Assembly: GCA_947490615.1 (NCBI GenBank)
Contig: CANLHK010000005.1
Span: 1-64,000, forward strand
DNA from: Planctomycetaceae bacterium
GTDB taxonomy: Bacteria; Planctomycetota; Phycisphaerae; Phycisphaerales; SM1A02
DNA: 64,000 bases
Direction: 5' to 3'
Shown: piece by piece, positions 30,410 to 41,211 of the stretch
How positions within the stretch are numbered: the first letter of the stretch is position 1
Layout: the number at the start of each line of letters is the position of its first letter
Notes under the pieces: generated by a model
What the model was told of the DNA's origin: nothing
Seen by the model: the letters and a program-made list of their open reading frames with translations, nothing else
The model's database searches: none
Position numbers and translations under genes: made by a program

Positions 30410-33400
30410 TCACGAGTGCCGAACTGGTCGGCCGAAGAGTTTTTCGCGCAGACCCATGATCATCACGAACAAAGTCGGCACCACGATCTGGTCGACGACC
30501 ACGGCGCCGAGCATACCGCCGAGCACGACGGTGCCGATGGAACGGCGGCTCTGCGCGCCCGCGCCCGTGGCAACCACGAGCGGCAAGATGCCGAGGATGA
30601 ACGCGAAGCTCGTCATCAAGATCGGACGCAAGCGCGCCTTCGATGCATGGACCGCAGCATCGAGTACCGAGAGGCCTTGGTAGTAATGCTCGGCCGCGAA
30701 CTCGGTGATCATGATCGCGTTCTTGGCGGACAAGCCGACAAGCATGACCAGACCGATCTGCGCGTAGGTGTCGAGCGGACGACCCGCGATCGCGAGCGCC
30801 GTAAGCGCGCCGAGCACGGCGAAGGCCACGGCCAACAACACATTGAACGGCAACGCCCACGACTCATACTGCGCCGCCAGCAACAAGAACACGGCAATGA
30901 GTGCGAGGCCAAAGATGATCCCTGCGTAGCCGCCCGATTCGATTTCCTGCAGCGTGGTCCCTGTCCATTCGTAGGTGAACCCCGTGGGCAGCGATGTCTG
31001 TGCCACTTCGGCAATGGCGCGAATCGAATCACCTGAGCTAAACCCAGGTGCCGAGTTGCCGTTGACCTGCACGGTGTTGAAGAGGTTGTAGTGCGTGGCA
31101 TTGTCCGTCGCGATGCCCAGCGAAATCGTCGCGATCGCCGCCATCGGCACCATCCCGCCCTGTGCGTTGCGCACATAGACATTCAGGATGTCCGTCGCGC
31201 GCATGCGGCTCGAGGCGTCGTCCTGAATCATCACGTTGTAGACCTGACCATACAAGTTGAAGTTGTTCACGAACGCTTGGCCGAGGTTCTGCCCAAGCGC
31301 TGCGAACACATCGCTCATCGACAACCCGAGCATCTGCGCCTTGGTGCGGTCAATGGCGAGGCGCACGACGGGCACCGAGTCGGTGAACGGCGAGTTGATG
31401 CCGCTGAGCTCAGGCCTCTTCTTCGCTGCTTCCATGAAGGCGCGGGCGACTGCGGAAAATTGCGCGAGCTTGACCCCTTGGGTGTCTTCGAGTTGCAACT
31501 GCCAGCCGCCCATCGCGCCGAGTCCTGCAATCGGTGGCGGAGCCGCGACGATGACCTTGGCCTCGGGAATCACGATGAGCCGCGGATAGGCACGCAGAAG
31601 AATCGCGCGCACATTCTCCGTGCGCACATCCCGCTCGTCCCAGGGTTTCAGGGTCACGATCAGGAAGGCTGCGTTGGTCTGCTGCGTGCCGGTGAGGAAG
31701 TTGAATCCCTCGATCTGCAGCACATTGGTGACGGCGGAATCCTCCGACACGATCTTGCGCACTTGCTCCGACACCTCAAGGGTGCGTGGCAAGCTCGCGC
31801 CTGGTGGAAGCTGGATGCCGACGAAGTACGCACCTTGATCTTCGTTGGGGATGAACGCCGTCGGCGTCCGTTCGAGCATGAAGACGATGGTGCCCGCTGC
31901 ACAGACAAAGAGCCCCGCCACCACCCACCAATGCACACCAAACCAATGGATGATCGAGCCGTAGAGCTCGCGCAGCCAATCGAAGAAGCGGTTGAAGAGT
32001 ACGAACGGCGGGAACTTCGTCGGCGCGTGGCCAGGCTTGAGGAACACCGCGGCCAACGCTGGTGAGAGCGAGAGCGAGTTGATCGCGGAAAGCGCGATCG
32101 AGAATGCGATGGTCAGCGCGAACTGGTTGTAGAGCCGTCCCGTGATGCCCGGCATGAGCGCCGCAGGAATGAACACCGCCAACAACACCAGGCTCGTGGC
32201 GATGATCGGCCCCGTGACCTGCGCCATCGCCTTCTCAGCAGCCTCGTGCATGTCGGTGACGCCGTTCTCGAGCTGGTGGTAGACATTCTCGACGACGATG
32301 ATCGCGTCATCGACAACCAGTCCAATGGCGAGCACCAATCCAAGCAGGGTCAATGAGTTGATGGAGAACCCGAACGCGGCCATCGCCGCGAAGGTTCCCA
32401 CGATCGAGACAGGGATCGCGATCATCGGGATGAGCGTCGCCCGCCAGTCCTGCAGGAAGATGAAGATCACGATGAGCACGAGCACTGCCGCTTCGACGAG
32501 CGTCTTGACCAGCTCATCGAGAGATGCCGAGACAAACAGCGTGGTGTCGTAGGCGACTTCGTGGGTGATTCCCGCGGGAAGCAGCGGCGTGAGGCGATCG
32601 AGTTCCTCACGCACCCGCTGCGCCACATCGAAGGCGTTGGCGTCGGGCAACTGGTAGATACCAATGAGCGCCGCGCCCTTGCCGTTGAAGTGCGAGGTGC
32701 TCGAGTAGAGATACGACCCGAGTTCGGCGCGACCAACATCCTTGATGCGCACCACCGCGCCGCGCGAGTCCGCGCGCAGGACGATGTCCTCGAACTCCTC
32801 GACACTCGTCAACCGACCCTCGGTCATGAGGCTCACGGTGAATGCGGGATGCTCGATCGAAGGCTGGGCGCCGATTGAACCGATCGCTGCCTGCTTGTTC
32901 TGTGCCTGCACCGCGCGCATCACATCGCTCGCGGTCATTCCGATCGCCCCGAGTCTGCCTGGATCGAGCCAGACCCGCATGGAGTACTGCTCGAGGCCGA
33001 AGATCGTCACCTGACCGACACCAGGAAGACGCTGCAACGCAGGCGCGACGGAGATGTCGGCAAGGTTGGTGAGCGTGCGGGTGTCGTAGGCGCCATCGGC
33101 TGACCGCAGCGCGGCAACGAGCGTCATGTTCGTCGACTGCTTGGTGACGGTGATGCCGAGTTGCTGCACTTCCGAGGGCAACTGACTGAAGGCTTGTTGC
33201 GCACGGTTCTGCACATCGACCGCCGCGATGTTGAGGTCGTAGCCAACCTCGAAGGTGCAAGTGATGACGCTCTGACCTGTGCTCGTGGAGTTCGAGCTCA
33301 TGTAGAGCATGCCCTGCACGCCGTTGATCTGCTGCTCAATCGGTGTCGTGACCGCTGCGGCAACCGTGGCGGCGTCGGCGCCGTTGTACATCGCAGTCAC

Positions 33401-33532
33401 TTGCACGGTCGGAGGCACGATGACGGGGAACTGCGCAATTGGCAGGGTGAACATCGTCGCCACGCCCGACAAGAGCATGATGAGCGCGAGCACCGTCGCA
33501 AAGACTGGTCGGCGGATGAAGAATCGTGACAT
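30410..33532 (-). CDS. RND multidrug efflux pump, inner-membrane subunit (AcrB/MexB type)
   Basis: Protein of 1040 residues, the standard length for HAE1-family RND pumps. It begins MSRFFIRRPVFATVLALIML, has the N-terminal porter domain (NGVQGMLYMSSNSTSTGQS), and transmembrane helix 4 with the proton-relay Asp pair in GLVVDDAIIVVENVYHQLE. The central helix block is IATSLVLLAVFIPAALMPG, followed by the second porter half and a C-terminal helix bundle (GRPLDTYAQIGLVMLVGLSAKNA). It works as a trimer, exporting hydrophobic compounds with proton influx through the adaptor and outer-membrane channel encoded just upstream (9-base gap to the adaptor gene). Strong family call; substrates unknown. Confidence 0.97.
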   Translation of the reverse strand: MSRFFIRRPVFATVLALIMLLSGVATMFTLPIAQFPVIVPPTVQVTAMYNGADAATVAAAVTTPIEQQINGVQGMLYMSSNSTSTGQSVITCTFEVGYDLNIAAVDVQNRAQQAFSQLPSEVQQLGITVTKQSTNMTLVAALRSADGAYDTRTLTNLADISVAPALQRLPGVGQVTIFGLEQYSMRVWLDPGRLGAIGMTASDVMRAVQAQNKQAAIGSIGAQPSIEHPAFTVSLMTEGRLTSVEEFEDIVLRADSRGAVVRIKDVGRAELGSYLYSSTSHFNGKGAALIGIYQLPDANAFDVAQRVREELDRLTPLLPAGITHEVAYDTTLFVSASLDELVKTLVEAAVLVLIVIFIFLQDWRATLIPMIAIPVSIVGTFAAMAAFGFSINSLTLLGLVLAIGLVVDDAIIVVENVYHQLENGVTDMHEAAEKAMAQVTGPIIATSLVLLAVFIPAALMPGITGRLYNQFALTIAFSIALSAINSLSLSPALAAVFLKPGHAPTKFPPFVLFNRFFDWLRELYGSIIHWFGVHWWVVAGLFVCAAGTIVFMLERTPTAFIPNEDQGAYFVGIQLPPGASLPRTLEVSEQVRKIVSEDSAVTNVLQIEGFNFLTGTQQTNAAFLIVTLKPWDERDVRTENVRAILLRAYPRLIVIPEAKVIVAAPPPIAGLGAMGGWQLQLEDTQGVKLAQFSAVARAFMEAAKKRPELSGINSPFTDSVPVVRLAIDRTKAQMLGLSMSDVFAALGQNLGQAFVNNFNLYGQVYNVMIQDDASSRMRATDILNVYVRNAQGGMVPMAAIATISLGIATDNATHYNLFNTVQVNGNSAPGFSSGDSIRAIAEVAQTSLPTGFTYEWTGTTLQEIESGGYAGIIFGLALIAVFLLLAAQYESWALPFNVLLAVAFAVLGALTALAIAGRPLDTYAQIGLVMLVGLSAKNAIMITEFAAEHYYQGLSVLDAAVHASKARLRPILMTSFAFILGILPLVVATGAGAQSRRSIGTVVLGGMLGAVVVDQIVVPTLFVMIMGLREKLFGRPVRHS

Positions 33533-33541
33533 CGCGTTTCC

Positions 33542-34747
33542 TTACTTCCCCGCCGTCGGTATCGAAGCGGGCGCTGCCGTCGCCGACTCCTCGAGGATGG
33601 TCGTACCCTCCACGAGTTTCTGCGAGCCCGCAGCCACAATGCGATCTCCCGCAGAGATGCCCGCGATGATGCCGACATCCTCACCCTCGCGCGCGCCCAC
33701 TTGAACGGCGACGGCCGACACGGTGTTGTTGGCGCCCACCCGCCAGACCACGAACTCCGCCTCGCGTGCGACCAACGCCTGCATCGGAATCATGAGGACA
33801 TCAGGAATCACGCCAAGATCGAGCGACACCGTCGCGTAGGTCCCCGGCCGAAACTCGCCCTTAGGATTGGGGAAGGTCACGCGCATCGCCAGCGTGGAGG
33901 TCGACGCTTCAACCGAGTTCGAGGTGTAGCTCAGCGTTCCCTGCGCGACGACCGAATCGTTGCCGCCGTAGATCACCAAGGCGTTCACTGGGCCAAGTGC
34001 GAGTTGCTCGCGCACCAACGGCCACTCTGTGGCGCTTGGTGCAAAGTCGAGCCACATCGGATCGAGTTCCATGAGCTCGTTGAGTTGCACGGTGTAGCCA
34101 GGGCCGACCATTTGCCCTTCGAAGGCTTGGGTGGCTCCGAGCGCGCCATCCATCGGCGCCTTGATCGTGCAGTAGGAGACATTGAGTTCAGCGAGTTCCA
34201 ATTGCGCCGACGCGGAGTCGACCGCCGCCATCGCGCTGGCGAGTTGCGCATCGCTCGTCGCGAGTTTGGTCTCGAGCTGATCAAACGACTGCTTGGAGAT
34301 CGCACCGCTTGAGGCGAGCGGACGGTTGCGGTCGACATCGCGCGCAGCAAGATCGCGCGCCGACTTGGCGCCTGGCACTTGTGCTTGTGCCTGTTGCAGC
34401 GTGCCGCGCGCCTGCTTGGCCGACGCCACGAAGGGACGCTGATCGATGGAGTAGAGCAGGTCGCCTGCTTTCACCATCGCGCCATCAGGAGCATGCTGCT
34501 TCTCAAGGAACCCCGTCACGCGCGCGCTCACCACGACGGGCCGCACGCTGGCCGTCACGCCAGGGAAACTGTGGATGCGCTTGACCGACTTGGTCGCGGC
34601 GACCACGGTGCGCACCGTGACTTCTTTGGGAGGCGTGGGCATTCCCGGCGGCTTGGCGCAGGAGGAAGCTCCGAACACGAGACAGGCTCCGAGGAAGAAC
34701 CGTCGAAGGACGAAACCGCGGTGGATAGATCGTTGCATGGCACTCAT
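33542..34747 (-). CDS. RND efflux periplasmic adaptor lipoprotein
   Basis: Protein of 401 residues with a lipoprotein signal (LGACLVFGASSC). The body is a typical membrane-fusion protein: barrel-sandwich half VVVSARVTGFLEKQHAPDGA and VKAGDLLYSIDQRPF, and an alpha-hairpin rich in Ala/Gln (about 105-185). The return strand is YCTIKAPMDGALGATQAFEG, and the beta-barrel segments include VTFPNPKGEFRPGTYATVSL. It bridges the RND pump and the outer-membrane channel. The start ATG overlaps the stop of the channel gene as ATGA and the pump gene begins 9 bases after its stop, so channel, adaptor and pump are translated from one message. Confidence 0.95.
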   Translation of the reverse strand: MSAMQRSIHRGFVLRRFFLGACLVFGASSCAKPPGMPTPPKEVTVRTVVAATKSVKRIHSFPGVTASVRPVVVSARVTGFLEKQHAPDGAMVKAGDLLYSIDQRPFVASAKQARGTLQQAQAQVPGAKSARDLAARDVDRNRPLASSGAISKQSFDQLETKLATSDAQLASAMAAVDSASAQLELAELNVSYCTIKAPMDGALGATQAFEGQMVGPGYTVQLNELMELDPMWLDFAPSATEWPLVREQLALGPVNALVIYGGNDSVVAQGTLSYTSNSVEASTSTLAMRVTFPNPKGEFRPGTYATVSLDLGVIPDVLMIPMQALVAREAEFVVWRVGANNTVSAVAVQVGAREGEDVGIIAGISAGDRIVAAGSQKLVEGTTILEESATAAPASIPTAGK

Positions 34748-36261
34748 CGTGAACCCTCACTCTTGCGACTCTCGCTGCTCGATGTTTCGTTCGCTTGGTT
34801 CTCACTCGACTCCGCGGAACGCAGGACCGTGTCGGAGTCGCTCCATCCCGCGCCAAGAGCGCGTTGCAGCGACACGAAGCCCTGCGCGACACCCGCTTGC
34901 GCATCGACGGCACCCGTCTGCGCATCCAGCGCGGCACGCTGCACATCCAGAAGCGTTGAGTAGTCCGTGACCCCAGCGTCAAATTGTTGTTGCGCGAGCA
35001 CAAGCGCCGCCTCGGCACTCGCCAAGGCCGCATCGGCGCGCGCACGAGTTTCTCTCGCGTAGACAAAGTCGCCGACGCTTGCCGAGAGATCACCAATGGC
35101 GGAGATCACTGTGCCGCGATACTGCGCCAACGCTGCCTCGGCCTCGGCGCGCGCTTGACGCACCGCGCTGTCGATGCGTCCTGCGGTAAAGATCGGCAGC
35201 GAGAGCGATGGTCCGAAGGAATAGGCCTTGTTCGAGAGATCGCCGAGCCCGGACACATCATTCGCGGCGATGTAGAAGTTGCCCGACAGTGAAAGCGTCG
35301 GCAGCCGTTGCGCCTCGGTCGCGCCGATGGCAGCGGTCGCTGCAAGGAGCCGCTGATGGGCAGCGCGCACATCGGGCCTGCGCTCGATGAGTTGCGCAGG
35401 AAGTCCGATGCCCGCAATCTCAGGTGCTGCAGGAAGTGGAGCAACTGCGACGACCAGCGGCGCCAGTTGCGATGGAGTCATGCCGCAAAGCACCGCGAGC
35501 GAAGCGATCGCGGAACTCAGTCCGCCGTCGATTTGTGGAACCTGTGCGTCCATCGCGTCAAGGTCGGCCTGCGCACGCGCCACATCGAGGCCATTGGTGG
35601 TCCCTGCGTCAAAGCGCGCTTGGATGAGATCGCGCGTCTTGACCAGCGTTTCCCGAGTGTCCAAAAGTACCGCGCGTTGCGTCTGCAGCGTGCGCACTTG
35701 CAAGTACGACGCCGCGACTTGCGCGCGCACCGAAACCAACGCGTCGCGCAGGGTGTCGACCGTGGATTCCGCGGAAGCCTTCGACGCTTCAACCTGCCGC
35801 CGCACGCCACCCCAGAGATCAATCTCCCACGCCGACATGCCAACTCCATAGGCGTAGGAGTTGTAGGGCTCGACGCGAACGCCCGCGGCGGCCAGTTGCG
35901 CGATGTTGGTCAGCGTGCGGGTGTACTGCGCGCCTGTGCCAACCGTCGGCCAGAGATCCGCCTCACTCACTCCAACCGACGCATACGCCGCGCGCACATT
36001 GGCCATCGCAGCCATGAGTGTCTGGTTGCCTTCGTCGGACTTGGCGATCAGCGCATCAAGAGTTGGATCGCGAAACGCCGTCCACCACTGCGCGACGGGT
36101 TGCTGTTGCGCTGAGACAACGCCAGCACTGGCTCCTGCGGGAGCCAACAACGCGTCAGCCTGTGGTGGTTCTGTCACAGGCGGAGCGTCGGGACCAACCT
36201 TGCAGGCAGCAAGAGTGAGACAAAGCGCGGCCGTCAACGACGGGCGAAGGGAAGTGAGCAT
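34744..36261 (-). CDS. Outer-membrane efflux lipoprotein (NodT/OprM type)
   Basis: The start is set at the ATG at 36261, which gives a lipoprotein signal (LTAALCLTLAAC, Cys at about 20) and 505 residues. The two outer-membrane efflux repeats are present: WWTAFRDPTLDALIAKS, SYLQVRTLQTQRAVLLDTR and LIQARFDAGTTNGLDVARAQ in the first; RRPDVRAAHQRLLAATAAIG, FGPSLSLPIFTAGR and LVLAQQQFDAGVTDYSTLLD in the second. Members form a trimeric TolC-like duct through the outer membrane. It is the first gene of the channel-adaptor-pump run, so the operon promoter should be in 36262-36333. The Ser/Glu-rich tail is unusual but not unique. Confidence 0.95.
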   Translation of the reverse strand: MLTSLRPSLTAALCLTLAACKVGPDAPPVTEPPQADALLAPAGASAGVVSAQQQPVAQWWTAFRDPTLDALIAKSDEGNQTLMAAMANVRAAYASVGVSEADLWPTVGTGAQYTRTLTNIAQLAAAGVRVEPYNSYAYGVGMSAWEIDLWGGVRRQVEASKASAESTVDTLRDALVSVRAQVAASYLQVRTLQTQRAVLLDTRETLVKTRDLIQARFDAGTTNGLDVARAQADLDAMDAQVPQIDGGLSSAIASLAVLCGMTPSQLAPLVVAVAPLPAAPEIAGIGLPAQLIERRPDVRAAHQRLLAATAAIGATEAQRLPTLSLSGNFYIAANDVSGLGDLSNKAYSFGPSLSLPIFTAGRIDSAVRQARAEAEAALAQYRGTVISAIGDLSASVGDFVYARETRARADAALASAEAALVLAQQQFDAGVTDYSTLLDVQRAALDAQTGAVDAQAGVAQGFVSLQRALGAGWSDSDTVLRSAESSENQANETSSSESRKSEGSR

Positions 36262-36333
36262 CTTGCAAGAGTTCAATTGGCGCGGGATCGAGCGCATCGA
36301 CCCATGCTAACTCAGACGCTGCGTTGCTGCGCC

Positions 36334-36964: not shown

Positions 36965-38449
36965 ATGCACCTTGCGGGAGCAACGCGACTCTGTTTCAGT
37001 GCCCTCATGCCAGTGGACTCCTCGCCACTCAAGGTGACCTCCAGCCGATGCCCCGTCTGCCTACGGCCGATCTCAGCACGCGTCGTGCAGCGCGGCGACA
37101 GCATCGTGATGGCCAAAAGTTGCGCGGAACACGGCGACTTCGAGACGCTCCTTTCCGCCAGCGCTGCGCACTACCACCTCGCGCATGGAAGATCCGACTG
37201 CTGCAGCGACGGCGCGACCTCAAGTTGCGACCGCAACGGTGCGAATTCCTGTTGCGCGGGAGGCAACCCCAACGCCGTCGATCCCTTCGAGCGGCTCTCC
37301 ACCTGTGTGGCGCTCATCGAAATCGTCGAGAGCTGCAATCTCAGCTGCCCCACTTGCTTTGCGTCGAGTCCGCTGGGAACGAACGAGGCGCTGAAGTACA
37401 CGACCTCGTCCGAGGTTCGCGCGCGCATCGCGGGCGTCGTGGCGCGCAAGGGGTTCATCGACATCATCCAACTCTCGGGTGGCGAGCCGACGCTCCATCC
37501 CGACTTCTTTGAGATCCTTGAGTGGTGTCTGCAGCACGCCAAGATTGGCTATGTGCTGGTGAACACGAACGCCGTGCGCGTCGCGACCGACGAGGGGTTT
37601 CGCGAGCGGCTCGGAGCACTGCGTCGTCAACGCGGGAAGTTCGAGCTCTATGTGCAGTTTGATGGAGTACAGGAGCGCGGGCAACGCGAGTTGCGTGGCG
37701 CGGATCTTCGAAAGATTCGCGAGCAGGCGATCGACAGTGCGGGTGCGCTCGGTGTGCCATCGACACTCGCGATGACCGTCACCGAGGAGACCATCGACGC
37801 ACTCGGTGACACCGTGCGATTCGCGGTGCCTCGCCGTCATGTCCGCGGCATCGCCTTTCAACCGCGCTTTACTTCAGGACGACTCGACGGCAGCGCGCCG
37901 ATGATTGAGAGCACCACGCTTCCAATCGCGCGGTGCATGACACGAACCATGGCACGACCGATTTCGGTAGGCGACATCGTGCAGGCACTCGCCAAGCAAG
38001 CCAGCGAGTTTGTCAGCGCAGAGGACTTCACGCCGCTTCCCTGTGGTGATCCCAACTGCCACACCATTGGCTACATCCTGCGCACCAAGGATGGAACGGT
38101 GCCGCTCTCGCGACTGATCTCGCTTGAGGCACTCCAGGGGTTTCTCTCCAATCGCGTCGACTACCGACTGGAAGATCTCGTGCAATGCGGCTGCGAGACG
38201 GAGCCCTTAGGAGAAGTGCTGCGCGCACTCGAGACTTCGCACGGAACGCTCGGTGCCGACGCGCCGTTTCGCTTCTTCATCAAGCCCTTCATGGACGCGT
38301 CGACCTTCGACCAAGACCGCATTGATCGCTGCTGCACCCATGTGATTCGCCCCGATGGATCGCTCGAGAGTTTCTGCCGCTACTACCTTGAGGGTGGCGA
38401 GCCTGGGTTTCGCGAGCGCCAACAGACGCGCGAGGAAGTCCGAACATGA
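36965..38449 (+). CDS. Radical SAM enzyme of the tetraether-synthase (Tes)/MJ0619 type
   Basis: Start at the ATG at 36965, 9 bases after a strong GGAGGAG; the next in-frame ATG is 37007. The product is 494 residues. A zinc-type Cys pair CPVC (29-32) pairs with SCAEHG (52-57), then a Cys cluster at 79-97 (DCC, SSC, SCC). The radical SAM core has CNLSCPTC (124-131, binding the SAM [4Fe-4S] cluster), GGEPT (172-176), and FQPRFTSGR near 300. A C-terminal FTPLPCGDPNCHTIGYIL and further Cys (CGCETEP, RCCTHV, FCRYYL) could bind extra clusters. The order matches archaeal Tes, which joins lipid chains, and the related MJ0619 methylase. The actual reaction is unknown. Its stop overlaps the next gene as ATGA. 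Confidence 0.85.
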   Translation: MHLAGATRLCFSALMPVDSSPLKVTSSRCPVCLRPISARVVQRGDSIVMAKSCAEHGDFETLLSASAAHYHLAHGRSDCCSDGATSSCDRNGANSCCAGGNPNAVDPFERLSTCVALIEIVESCNLSCPTCFASSPLGTNEALKYTTSSEVRARIAGVVARKGFIDIIQLSGGEPTLHPDFFEILEWCLQHAKIGYVLVNTNAVRVATDEGFRERLGALRRQRGKFELYVQFDGVQERGQRELRGADLRKIREQAIDSAGALGVPSTLAMTVTEETIDALGDTVRFAVPRRHVRGIAFQPRFTSGRLDGSAPMIESTTLPIARCMTRTMARPISVGDIVQALAKQASEFVSAEDFTPLPCGDPNCHTIGYILRTKDGTVPLSRLISLEALQGFLSNRVDYRLEDLVQCGCETEPLGEVLRALETSHGTLGADAPFRFFIKPFMDASTFDQDRIDRCCTHVIRPDGSLESFCRYYLEGGEPGFRERQQTREEVRT

Positions 38450-38613
38450 CGCCAACACCCTCAGGCTACTTTGAGCCGCGCATTGAGCCGCATTGCGACC
38501 ACTGCGGGTTCCCCCTTCGAGGACTTCCCGAGGAAGGCGTCTGTCCCGAGTGCGGCACGGCCTACACGCCGACCAGTGCGTCGCGCCTGCAGACGCCACC
38601 AAGCGTGGGCGAG
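38446..38613 (+). repeat. Near-identical 168-base module, copy 1
   Basis: These 168 bases (zinc-ribbon part of copy 1) match 39111-39278 with 3 mismatches. Four identical bases (GAAC) precede the ATG in both. Similarity falls sharply after the GAG at 38611-38613. Confidence 0.9.
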
Positions 38614-38958
38614 GCGCTCACCACGCTCCTCGCGCCATGGTTCGTCCTTGGCGGCGTCGCACTCGTGGCGATGATCAGTGGTGGTGCGCGCCTGCGTTGG
38701 GGCGGGATCATCTTTGGCGCGGTGCTCCCCCCACTCTGTGCGATCTGGGCGGGATACCGCACGAGGCGCTACGCCCGCGCCCTCCTCAACGAAGTCTTCT
38801 CGCAACGAGCCGTGAAGCGGCGACCGATTGGATTTGTCCTCACGCTGCTCGTCTGGTTCGGCACCGCAGTCTTGGCGGCAGGCCTCCTGGTCACCGTCGC
38901 AGGGCTCTTGCTCTACGGAGCCTGGCTCGTCGACCGGCCGTTGTTCCTGATGCTCTAG
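38446..38958 (+). CDS. Zinc-ribbon membrane protein, copy 1
   Basis: Protein of 170 residues. A rubredoxin-like zinc ribbon near the N-terminus reads HCDHCGFPLRGLPEEGVCPECG (two CxxC knuckles). A linker and then three hydrophobic helices follow: APWFVLGGVALVAMISGG, GGIIFGAVLPPLCAIWAG and FVLTLLVWFGTAVLAAGLLV, with a further hydrophobic end. The zinc ribbon faces the cytoplasm if the N-terminus is inside. The ATG overlaps the stop of the radical SAM gene (ATGA), so the two are translated together. The first 168 bases are nearly identical to those of copy 2 at 39111. Function unknown; a membrane partner of the radical SAM enzyme or a regulator is possible. Confidence 0.75.
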   Translation: MTPTPSGYFEPRIEPHCDHCGFPLRGLPEEGVCPECGTAYTPTSASRLQTPPSVGEALTTLLAPWFVLGGVALVAMISGGARLRWGGIIFGAVLPPLCAIWAGYRTRRYARALLNEVFSQRAVKRRPIGFVLTLLVWFGTAVLAAGLLVTVAGLLLYGAWLVDRPLFLML

Positions 38959-39003: not shown

Positions 39004-39108
39004 ATGTCTCGCTCCCACACACCACCGTCCGCTCACGAGCTGTTTGCGCCTCTCAGCCGTGAGCATGACGACCCGCTACTTCCCGCAACTCGCGAAGGAA
39101 CACTGTGA
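39004..39108 (+). pseudogene. Decayed 5' fragment of a duplicated ECF sigma-factor gene
   Basis: An ATG at 39004 opens a 34-codon frame whose product begins MSRSHTPPSAHELF and continues LSREHDDPLL. The intact sigma factor at 39671 begins MSPSHTPPSAKDLF and continues LIRENGDALL, so about half of the first 32 residues agree without gaps. The frame then stops at a TGA (39106-39108), two bases before the ATG of the second zinc-ribbon gene. Both copies follow a zinc-ribbon gene, so this is most simply the truncated sigma gene from a tandem duplication of a zinc-ribbon/sigma pair. It might still act as a short coupling ORF. The fragment lacks all DNA- and polymerase-binding regions. Confidence 0.7.
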
Positions 39109-39110
39109 AC

Positions 39111-39278
39111 ATGACGCCAACACCCTCAGGCTACTTTGAGCCGCGCATCGAGCCGCATTGCGACCACTGCGGGTTCCCCCTTCGAGGACTTCCCGAGGAA
39201 GGCACCTGTCCCGAGTGCGGCACGGCCTACACGCCGACCAGTGCGTCGCGCCTGCAGACGCCACCAAGCGTGGGCGAG
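39111..39278 (+). repeat. Near-identical 168-base module, copy 2
   Basis: Partner of 38446-38613, 3 mismatches in 168 bases (one C/T, then a G/A and T/C pair that change one codon). The downstream part of the two genes is far less similar, so either the module was recently homogenised by gene conversion or only this part is under strong constraint. Confidence 0.9.
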
Positions 39279-39626
39279 GTGCTGACCTCACTCAGCGTGC
39301 CGTGGCTGGTCTTCGTGGGAGTCGTGCTCTTGGGCATCGCCGGTGCCAACAGCCGAGGCGGCACGGTTGGAGCCATCTTCTTCCTCGGCATCGCGGCCCC
39401 GCTCTGCGTGATATGGAGCGGTGTTCGGACCTATCGCTATGCCCGTGCTTACAGGAACGAAATCCTGACCCGAGAGGACACACAACGGCCCAGCATGCGG
39501 ACGGGACGCGTCCTCGTCGGCCTGATCGCCGCGCTCCTCCTCTTGGTCGGTATCGCGGCAACCGTGCTCGGGGTGGTGATCTTCGCAGCGTGCTTCACCC
39601 CAGGAGTTTCCACGATCGGACTCTAG
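39111..39626 (+). CDS. Zinc-ribbon membrane protein, copy 2
   Basis: Protein of 171 residues from the ATG at 39111, the same start as copy 1; a GTG two codons upstream is also in frame. The zinc ribbon (CDHCG, CPECG) and linker differ from copy 1 at one residue in the first 56. The membrane part has diverged: VPWLVFVGVVLLGIAGANS, GGTVGAIFFLGIAAPLCVIW and VLVGLIAALLLLVGIAATVL. The topology is kept. It follows the sigma-gene fragment by two bases and precedes the intact sigma factor by 44. Function unknown; being paired with a sigma factor, a sensory or regulatory membrane role is plausible. Confidence 0.75.
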   Translation: MTPTPSGYFEPRIEPHCDHCGFPLRGLPEEGTCPECGTAYTPTSASRLQTPPSVGEVLTSLSVPWLVFVGVVLLGIAGANSRGGTVGAIFFLGIAAPLCVIWSGVRTYRYARAYRNEILTREDTQRPSMRTGRVLVGLIAALLLLVGIAATVLGVVIFAACFTPGVSTIGL

Positions 39627-39670: not shown

Positions 39671-40258
39671 ATGTCCCCTTCTCACACGCCGCCCTCCGCC
39701 AAGGACCTCTTCGAGATTCTCATTCGTGAGAACGGCGACGCGCTCTTGGCCTCGATTCGCGCCCACGCGGGTCCGCAGTTCGCCGACGACATCTTTCAGG
39801 ACACCGTGCTCGTCGCGTGGCGCCGCTTGAGCGACTACGACCGCACGCGGCCGTTCGGACCGTGGTTGCGCGGCATCGCGCGGATGATTGCCTTGGAGTA
39901 CGGCGCGCGGAGTGCGCGCGTCCGCCTCACTGAGCCCGCACTCCTTGATGCGATGGAGCGCGAGCTGCGCGCCTTCGAGCGCTCCCACATCGACGAACCA
40001 GAGGGCGCGATGAGTTTCCGCGAACGACTCGCCGCACTCGACGAGTGCCTCTCACGACTTCCCGCGCTCTACGCCGACACGGTGCAGTCGGTCTATCGCG
40101 ACTCGCACACGCTTGCACAGATCGCGCTCTCGCATGGTGAAACCACCGAGGCCATCAAGAAGCGACTGCAGCGGGCGCGGGCGCTCCTCGAAGCGTGCCT
40201 TGTCGCCAAAGGCCTGTTTGGACCAGATCCCGACATGCTCGAAGGAGCCGCGTCATGA
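39671..40258 (+). CDS. ECF sigma factor, Rhodopirellula/Verrucomicrobium type
   Basis: The frame is open upstream through the zinc-ribbon gene, but the family starts at the ATG at 39671, giving 195 residues. Region 2 is GPQFADDIFQDTVLVAWRRL followed by the typical RPFGPWLRGIARM; region 4 is LPALYADTVQSVYRDSHTLA then IALSHGETTEAIKKRLQRAR (helix-turn-helix). It has no sigma region 3. Sigma factors of this subgroup direct polymerase to a small set of promoters and are held by a membrane anti-sigma factor. The next gene, overlapping by 4 bases (ATGA), has the right topology for that. Target promoters might include the operon itself; no repeated promoter motif was proven by eye. Confidence 0.92.
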   Translation: MSPSHTPPSAKDLFEILIRENGDALLASIRAHAGPQFADDIFQDTVLVAWRRLSDYDRTRPFGPWLRGIARMIALEYGARSARVRLTEPALLDAMERELRAFERSHIDEPEGAMSFRERLAALDECLSRLPALYADTVQSVYRDSHTLAQIALSHGETTEAIKKRLQRARALLEACLVAKGLFGPDPDMLEGAAS

Positions 40259-41211
40259 ACGAGGCTCGCACTCGCGTGGTGCAGACCTTGCTTGAGCAGC
40301 ACCTCGGTGAATCTCCCGCGCGCATGGAGGAACGCTACGCCCGCGCGCTTGCGGCGCTTCACACCGATGAGTGCACAGTGGCGCACGCCGCGAAAGGTCA
40401 CCGAGCGATACGGTGGGCACGCGCGGCACTCATCGTGGTCACTGCTGGCGCGTTGTTCTTTCTGCTTCCGCTTGAGACACGCGCCGCGAGCGTCTTGGCT
40501 CACACCGTCAGGAACGAGTCGCGCACGCAGACGAGTGCCGCCGAGCGCCGCTATGAGGTCGAGGTCCTCATGCCTCCGCGGTTGGGAGAGGCGCGCCCGA
40601 GTGCTGAAGTCTGGTTGCGCGGGCAGTGGGACATGCGCGGCAACGAGAGCCGACTTGAGATCGCCGTCGAGGGTCGACCGAGCGTGATTCGCGCCGATGC
40701 GGTGGGCGGCGCGTGGGAACGCGATGTCGTTGGGACCGTTCGACCGCTCGAGTCGCGCGCGCTCTGGCCACGGTGGATCGAAGACCGCGATGGCTCTGTC
40801 GCCATTGAACGCATGGACGGACTCTTGCGGCTCGTGCAGCGTTCCTACGCCGTGGCCTTTGCGCGCGCAGGCGCCGAGTCACGCACGGAACTTCGCGGCG
40901 CCTTGCATCTCGTGGCCTCACGACGCGAGCGCGCGCAGGGTCCCGACGAAATCGATCTCTGGATCGACACAACACGCGAAGTCGTTCTCGAAGCGCGACT
41001 GCGTTGGACCGCGCCACCGCGACGCGGCGCGCCGCCGCCTTTCCCTCCACCGCCGCCCAATCACGAAGAGTACCGCCCGTCCCGCGGCGCACTTCCTCCG
41101 TTTCCGCCCTCAGAGCTGCGACTTCGCCGCGTGGAGCCTGTGAGCTTTCCTGCTGATCACTTCAGCATGCCTCTGCGCGAACCTCGCAACACGCAGCGCC
41201 CAAGCCGCTGA
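40255..41211 (+). CDS. Anti-sigma-like single-span membrane protein
   Basis: Start at the ATG at 40255, overlapping the sigma-factor stop; 318 residues. Residues 1-54 are helical and cytoplasmic (LLEQHLGESPARMEERYARA). One membrane helix lies at about 55-73 (ARAALIVVTAGALFFLLPL). The outer part (74-318) looks like a beta-rich LolA/RseB-like domain: RRYEVEVLMPPRLGE, AEVWLRGQWDMRGNE and SRLEIAVEGRPSVIRADAVG. It ends in a Pro-rich stretch (PPPFPPPPPNH). It lacks the HxxxCxxC zinc motif of ZAS anti-sigma factors. Translational coupling and topology suggest it restrains the sigma factor and senses an envelope signal, but sequence alone does not prove this. Confidence 0.65.
   Translation: MNEARTRVVQTLLEQHLGESPARMEERYARALAALHTDECTVAHAAKGHRAIRWARAALIVVTAGALFFLLPLETRAASVLAHTVRNESRTQTSAAERRYEVEVLMPPRLGEARPSAEVWLRGQWDMRGNESRLEIAVEGRPSVIRADAVGGAWERDVVGTVRPLESRALWPRWIEDRDGSVAIERMDGLLRLVQRSYAVAFARAGAESRTELRGALHLVASRRERAQGPDEIDLWIDTTREVVLEARLRWTAPPRRGAPPPFPPPPPNHEEYRPSRGALPPFPPSELRLRRVEPVSFPADHFSMPLREPRNTQRPSR

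Follow-up and report, generated by a model that had tools for sequence, protein, structure and literature searches.

The archaeal radical SAM protein MJ0619 is the tetraether synthase Tes, or GDGT-MAS (PMC9433317). Homologues of this enzyme have already been reported from bacteria, including Phycisphaerae, with their function unproven, and they serve to guess which bacteria make the membrane-spanning and branched tetraether lipids that form the basis of climate proxies (PMC8941075, PMC11868695). A related profile, TrsS (NF045646), was found in the literature we searched only as a listing in a selenoprotein review. In the field of protein lipidation, the C-terminal region of MYXO-CTERM proteins holds an invariant Cys, to which an enzyme resembling Lgt (prolipoprotein diacylglyceryl transferase) is believed to attach a lipid (PMC11980579), and DAG-RiPPs are a ribosomal peptide pathway that borrows Lgt-type lipidation (PMC12636315).

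These last two are the nearest published ideas to the system described here, and both differ from it in topology or enzymes. In the MYXO-CTERM/myxosortase system the Cys precedes the helix (an inverted topology) and dozens of proteins are tagged, whereas here the Cys follows the last helix, the candidate substrates have their genes at the locus, and there is always a radical SAM enzyme. DAG-RiPPs use an N-terminal lipoprotein signal, an MNIO enzyme and the ordinary lipoprotein pathway, in contrast to the putative C-terminal signal, dedicated Lgt paralogue and Tes-like radical SAM enzyme found here. Searches of the literature for radical SAM enzymes with Lgt, for tetraethers with diacylglyceryl transferase and for a C-terminal lipobox returned no description of the Lgt partnership or of the tail signal.

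The locus lies in a window of 64,000 nucleotides, the whole stretch of DNA that was analysed, from a Planctomycetaceae bacterium (positions 1 to 64,000 of contig CANLHK010000005.1). Its central open reading frame, 494 aa as called, was confirmed as real (Table 1): full-length orthologues with 52-78% identity are present in the genus, family and order, Pfam returns the HMPTM zinc ribbon (E 3.5e-16) and Radical_SAM (E 5.3e-16), and the best match among solved structures is PDB 7tol (E 5.2e-37), a structure of MJ0619 (7TOL/7TOM). Judged from these sequence matches, the frame is far beyond chance. In congeners the protein begins at a Met that corresponds to residue 15, so translation probably starts from ATG 37007, giving 480 aa.

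All motifs named in the preliminary description of this DNA were located in the frame, namely CPVC...SCAEHG (C29, C32, C53 and H56), CNLSCPTC (124-131), GGEPT (172-176), FQPRFTSGR (298-306), PCGDPNCHTIGY (359-370), CGC (408/410), CC (456/457) and C471, together with the Cys group at 79-97 (C79, C80, C88, C96 and C97). The neighbouring genes also proved to be as described there, with two zinc-ribbon membrane proteins, an ECF sigma factor and an anti-sigma-like protein. Elsewhere in the window, at 30410-36297 on the minus strand, the sequence reads as an apparently complete RND efflux set of inner membrane pump, membrane fusion protein and TolC-like outer membrane protein.

Table 1. Features of the radical SAM locus, in window coordinates
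Feature	Position	Strand	Basis or remark
Tes-like radical SAM enzyme	36965..38449	+	Pfam, PDB, orthologue alignment, structure model
Rubredoxin-type Fe site C29-x2-C32-x20-C53-x2-H56	37049..37132	+	MJ0619 alignment, PMC9433317
Cys-rich loop replacing the N-terminal Tes cluster set	37199..37306	+	Alignment; predicted disordered
Radical SAM CX3CX2C, C124-C128-C131	37334..37357	+	Sequence, MJ0619 alignment
C-terminal cluster Cys C360, C365, C408, C410, C456, C457, C471	38042..38377	+	Alignment, PMC9433317
P0002, zinc-ribbon three-TM protein	38446..38958	+	Overlaps radical SAM stop by 4 bases; tail position Trp
P0003, zinc-ribbon three-TM protein	39111..39626	+	Tail Cys FAAC; presumed cassette substrate
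P0004, ECF sigma factor	39671..40258	+	sigma70-ECF 62.7 bits, cut-off 42.9; flanking, not cassette
Anti-sigma-like single-TM protein	40255..41211	+	No family match; flanking, not cassette

Short gaps and overlaps among these five genes in the source genome are consistent with the operon first proposed, in which a lipid-modifying enzyme would be controlled by its own envelope-stress sigma factor, and the sigma gene is also found at the radical SAM locus of two congeners, G009 and G013. However, orthologues of the sigma factor are present in at least nine congeners without the radical SAM gene, and none was found in G005, which has the radical SAM gene. In radical SAM-negative congeners the same syntenic slot holds the flanking genes and the sigma/anti-sigma pair. 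Across the radical SAM family, a sigma gene of the P0004 cluster stands at only 4 of 81 loci. The pair is part of a block that keeps its synteny together with the genes downstream, and we place it outside the cassette described below because of its presence at the same slot in the radical SAM-negative congeners and its absence from G005. On synteny and co-occurrence we rejected sigma-factor control of the enzyme; the operon reading is largely refuted by synteny, and we give it hardly any credence.

The radical SAM enzyme resembles Tes over its whole length. An AlphaFold2 model (pLDDT 82.6, pTM 0.85) aligned to 7tom over 403 residues with Z 36.1 and 24% identity, the next entries, among them the peptide maturases SkfB and SuiB, reaching Z of about 18-19. 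In 80 family members the rubredoxin-type site of MJ0619 (C9x2C12x20C33x2H36) is aligned at all four positions with identical spacing (Cys in 80/80; the last ligand His in 72 and Cys in 8), CX3CX2C, Gln268 and Arg275 are kept throughout, and the three Cys of the MJ0619 C-terminal cluster are kept in 80, 80 and 79 members. The likeness in fold and domain order noted in the preliminary description therefore stands, with the correction that the "Tes" and the "MJ0619 methylase" compared there are one protein, since MJ0619 is Tes (PMC9433317).

Several features nevertheless set the enzyme apart from Tes. It scores 160.2 bits with the Tes profile (NF045702), below the curated cut-off of 450, and its best family-model score, 211.2 bits with TrsS over residues 25-379, is below the cut-off of 490; plain membership of either family was rejected on these scores. 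From the N-terminal [4Fe-4S] set of MJ0619 (C73, C77, C80 and a His), C80 and H83 are replaced throughout the family; a variable Cys-rich loop, often of the form CC-xn-C[C/x]C and predicted in our model to be disordered at residues 78-98, stands in place of the set and is followed by an invariant C114. The labile Met439 ligand of Tes is replaced by an invariant Lys (K440, 80/80) and Ser271 by Phe (79/80). As the M439A variant of MJ0619 retains activity (PMC9433317), the missing Met439 is by itself no proof against function. In a maximum-likelihood tree of 87 sequences, built by a quick method with a single archaeal sequence (two pieces from PDB alignments) and several long branches, all family members fall in a single clade (support 99), made up of Phycisphaerae and Verrucomicrobiota, and MJ0619 groups outside it with three planctomycete sequences (L048, L061 and L204). 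Two other planctomycete clades in this tree carry a CPxDCGLC motif. By these sequence comparisons the enzyme is not Tes, and membership of that family, for which profile search and phylogeny had been named as the check, fails on both, with the cut-off missed and a separate clade.

Other assignments were also considered. SPASM peptide maturases had been named as an example of an unrelated family whose best match would overturn the initial reading; the best match is the Tes structure, no SPASM match was found in Pfam, and SkfB in the PDB reached E 6.9e-5. A selenoprotein, as the TrsS match might suggest, was rejected, the gene having no in-frame TGA, and the TGA at one further locus (L012) lying upstream of the start. 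TrsS and the planctomycete CPxDCGLC homologues retain CPxDCGLC, in contrast to our gene, which has no in-frame stop or selenocysteine.

To find the partners of the enzyme, we scanned 84,980 species genomes, which yielded 141 relatives, and kept 80 loci; the cultured carriers among them include Chthoniobacter flavus, Roseibacillus and Haloferula. Clustering of the neighbours gave one Lgt-family partner (PF01790, 2.9e-27) at 63 of the 80 loci. It shares the strand of the radical SAM gene in every case, nearly always sits directly downstream of it, and is within two genes of it in 57 of the 63. Gene calls at the loci were mechanical, and the 17 loci without a linked Lgt-like call include some at contig ends or affected by ORF calling and some in which the gene is unlinked. 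In the genus of the source organism the two genes are not linked; the paralogue of the source genome lies on another contig (G000:C9:100208-100939, minus strand) and scores 86.3 bits for PF01790 against a cut-off of 24.9.

The distribution of the two genes points in the same direction as their linkage. The radical SAM-positive members of the genus that were compared (G000, G005, G009 and G013) have a second Lgt-family gene of the paralogue type, whereas the radical SAM-negative ones (G001, G004, G008 and G015) have canonical Lgt only. With the reservation that the genomes are related by descent and that radical SAM-linked genes contributed to the Lgt-like profile (A4), both genes co-occur in the same 13 of 61 relatives (Fisher 1.5e-13), and among 392 Planctomycetota a Tes/TrsS-like radical SAM gene is carried by 40 of the 41 genomes with the Lgt-like subfamily and lies within 1.5 kb of 38 of the 42 Lgt-like genes. 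The one discordant relative, G007, has a 38-residue radical SAM fragment at a contig end and no Lgt-like gene, in a genome that is 82% complete.

An alignment with 14 canonical Lgt sequences indicated that the active site of the paralogue is partly kept and partly changed. Arg143 (64/64) and Arg239 (63/64), both essential in E. coli Lgt (PMC4728403), are retained, as are the Glu and Arg that follow Arg239. Compared with Lgt of E. coli (PDB 5AZB/5AZC), the paralogue is shorter and lacks His103, a residue found in 14/14 canonical sequences and mostly replaced by Thr, Leu or Val here; no tested His103 mutant of the E. coli enzyme complemented, and the residue is reported as essential (PMC4728403). 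All paralogues have Cys at the position of Asn146; the core family also has it, without exception, at the position of Glu151 and at the residue after that. A separate canonical Lgt is also present in the genomes. Given the loss of His103 and the new invariant Cys, the paralogue may do other chemistry.

The third component is a small membrane protein with a Cys in its tail; across the loci, the genes for such proteins stand ahead of the two enzyme genes or between them. P0002 and P0003 are tandem duplicates, near-identical over the first ~56 residues, which form the zinc ribbon, and diverged in their membrane halves (tail Trp versus tail Cys). The tail Cys of P0003 is residue 163 counted from the GTG at 39105 (codon 39591-39593), and in an AlphaFold2 model with a pTM of only 0.49 it lies at the end of the third of three helices (56-80, 86-124 and 129-164). 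Proteins of this type cluster at 22 loci, and this neighbour clustering bears out the view of the zinc-ribbon proteins as true conserved partners of the radical SAM enzyme. When 21 members were aligned, all shared the four zinc ligands and more than 90% had the tail Cys, P0002 being the sole exception among linked copies; by this alignment, the tail Cys appears about as conserved as the Cys of the zinc ribbon.

A tail Cys is also common among the other small proteins of these loci. A Cys falls within the last 16 residues in 92 of the 106 small TM-ended proteins that lie nearby (within 2.5 kb and on the same strand), compared with 12 of 45 farther off (p 1e-12), and the strict motif [FLIVMWY][GA][GAST]C is found in 47 of the 106 and in 0 of 31 comparable proteins from ~800 kb of two genomes. 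Chance hydrophobic ends, tested against the far neighbours and the genome samples, were rejected as the source of this signal, and the 0 of 31 also led us to reject a genome-wide sorting tag, which suggests that the genes for the substrates lie at the locus itself. The tail motif is missing from zinc-ribbon paralogues that are unlinked. From single-Cys tails, with one weight per homology cluster, we derived the consensus F(-3) G/A(-2) G(-1) C. The residues around the Cys are conserved and the extreme C-terminus is not, often only 2-5 residues following the Cys. The tail proteins fall into 35-45 homology clusters, most proteins of which are three-helix proteins; these clusters may be remote relatives, and we therefore do not claim convergence of the tag.

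Of 72 of these proteins, 52 have three TM helices and 65 a positively charged loop ahead of the last one; this topology predicts that the tail Cys faces outwards, as it does in prolipoprotein signals. Compared with the lipobox [LVI][ASTVI][GAS]C, the tail agrees at -1 (G/A/S) and in topology, and is mostly F at -3 and mostly G or A at -2. The tail Cys also follows the enzymes among congeners. Five radical SAM-negative genomes (G002, G003, G006, G011 and G012) have the zinc-ribbon protein and no tail Cys, and each radical SAM-positive genome with a linked zinc-ribbon protein has at least one copy with it, from which we conclude that the tail Cys tracks the enzymes.

Adjacency, co-occurrence and the correlated loss of the tail Cys show that the radical SAM enzyme, the Lgt paralogue and the tail-Cys proteins belong together. 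They form one cassette across Phycisphaerae and Verrucomicrobiota, made up of a Tes-like radical SAM enzyme, an Lgt-family membrane enzyme with a changed active site and at least one small three-helix protein, in many cases with a zinc ribbon at its N-terminus. The best explanation we can offer for its function, in which belief and doubt weigh equally, is that the C-terminal Cys receives a lipid from the Lgt paralogue and that an alkyl chain is remodelled by the radical SAM enzyme. The last helix and its Cys would mimic a prolipoprotein signal, with a positive loop inside, a hydrophobic helix, small residues and the Cys outside. The Lgt paralogue would move a lipid, probably diacylglyceryl, onto the thiol of the tail Cys, and the Tes-like enzyme would use its radical chemistry on the alkyl chain, either in the donor lipid or in the lipid once bound to the protein, comparable to Tes at chain ends. 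The outcome would be a small protein with an unusual lipid at its C-terminus.

The steps of this proposal differ in strength. We lean towards the tail being a lipobox-like signal at the C-terminus, to which the Lgt paralogue attaches the lipid, as the retained Arg143 and Arg239, the linkage of the Lgt-like gene, its presence in the same 13 genomes, the tail-Cys enrichment and the three-TM topology suggest. The departure from the classical lipobox at -3 and -2 speaks against it, as do the lost His103 and the new Cys of the paralogue. From the Tes fold it is plausible, though a shade short of even, that the radical SAM enzyme has an alkyl chain as its target, like its closest relative. More tentative still is the fuller version, in which this enzyme makes a new bond on the lipid chain, whether attached or donated, possibly linking it to a second lipid or back onto the protein. 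The cassette is known from its genes, and the exceptions given above (P0002, the G007 fragment and the 17 loci) count against the lipidation reading as a whole. Radical SAM enzymes work in the cytoplasm, and a Tes-like one is expected to act from that side of the membrane; the tail Cys, in contrast, is predicted to lie outside. This conflict could be solved if the chemistry took place on the donor lipid before transfer or, as Tes takes chain ends, if the end of the chain reached the inner leaflet.

The same sidedness problem confronts a RiPP-like pathway, in which the small protein would be a precursor and the radical SAM enzyme would tailor its C-terminal peptide, for instance by crosslinking the Cys or residues next to it through a thioether or C-C bond. 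The order of precursor then maturase, the several tandem substrates per locus, the F-G-G-C conserved around the Cys next to a variable C-terminus, and the presence of SkfB and SuiB among the next structural neighbours all fit such a pathway. Yet the Cys is often followed by just 2-5 unconserved residues, and the nearest structure by far is a lipid enzyme. We regard this pathway as unlikely, action of the radical SAM enzyme on peptide instead of lipid as having roughly one chance in four, and, equally doubtful, the role the Lgt paralogue would then have, adding a lipid or only presenting the substrate.

The new invariant Cys and missing catalytic His of the Lgt paralogue could also mean that lipid is not involved, its Cys and the tail Cys forming a metal, disulfide or persulfide site in a redox or metal-handling membrane complex. 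The Cys-rich disordered loop of the radical SAM enzyme and the zinc ribbons of many partners would suit such a complex. A mere scaffold, however, would not need Arg143 and Arg239, and the topology of the tail mirrors that of a lipoprotein signal; we judge this reading quite improbable.

Bulk-lipid synthesis, by a bacterial Tes-like synthase that couples or modifies membrane acyl chains (to membrane-spanning or branched tetraether-like lipids, for example) with the partners as accessories or sensors, would account for the Tes fold and for the Cys conserved at the rubredoxin-type site and at the radical SAM and C-terminal clusters. It has been suggested in print that the Tes homologues of bacteria, Phycisphaerae among them, make such lipids (PMC8941075, PMC11868695), although these published homologues are not experimentally confirmed. 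The family forms a clade apart from archaeal Tes and its planctomycete neighbours, which show no Lgt-like partner; Met439 and Ser271 are replaced and the N-terminal cluster set is lost; and the pairing with the Lgt paralogue and tail-Cys proteins is strict. Bulk synthesis is thus improbable to us, if less so than a complex without lipid. The preliminary description had left open membrane lipids or another hydrophobic substrate; the likeness to a lipid enzyme survives in the fold, and the bulk-lipid part is disfavoured, for the partners in Phycisphaerae and Verrucomicrobiota, as read from their sequences, point to C-terminal protein lipidation over bulk membrane-lipid synthesis.

Protein lipidation, our preferred reading, may extend beyond this family, as the trio recurs with further planctomycete enzymes of the Tes/TrsS-like kind. 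The CPxDCGLC homologues, which have higher TrsS scores than our family, have an Lgt-like neighbour at 25 of the 32 short loci matched (L021 and L034 among them; 11 labelled), and a three-helix protein with a Cys near its C-terminus often accompanies them. No Lgt-like gene was found in the neighbourhoods of L048, L061 and L204, nearer archaeal Tes, or at the loci of four fatty-acid-synthase-like clusters (L195, L197, L198 and L203).

If the inferred chemistry holds, the whole system would be of a new kind, built from known kinds of enzyme, and C-terminal protein lipidation with radical chemistry may exist. If many bacterial Tes homologues are tied to an Lgt paralogue and tail-Cys proteins, many candidate brGDGT synthases would belong to protein lipidation instead, and assignments of lipid producers would need revision. 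The cultured carriers Chthoniobacter flavus, Roseibacillus and Haloferula make the lipidation idea testable now.

Three further observations were made along the way. The source genome encodes a third Lgt-family protein of 416 aa (L180:4322-5572, on G000:C6), Lgt-like in its C-terminal half and, by eye, PAP2-type phosphatase-like in its N-terminal half; G435 has a similar partial match. At five loci (L069, L130, L142, L143 and L096) the organism names, such as Candidatus Kuenenia stuttgartiensis, Akkermansia muciniphila and delta proteobacterium, misfit the placement of the radical SAM protein, and these may be mislabelled MAGs. At L195, L197, L198 and L203, Tes-like radical SAM genes, some in tandem, stand beside FabF-, FabG- and FabZ-like genes, with an aminotransferase at L195 and L198, and these clusters possibly represent a fatty-acid or ladderane-like pathway.
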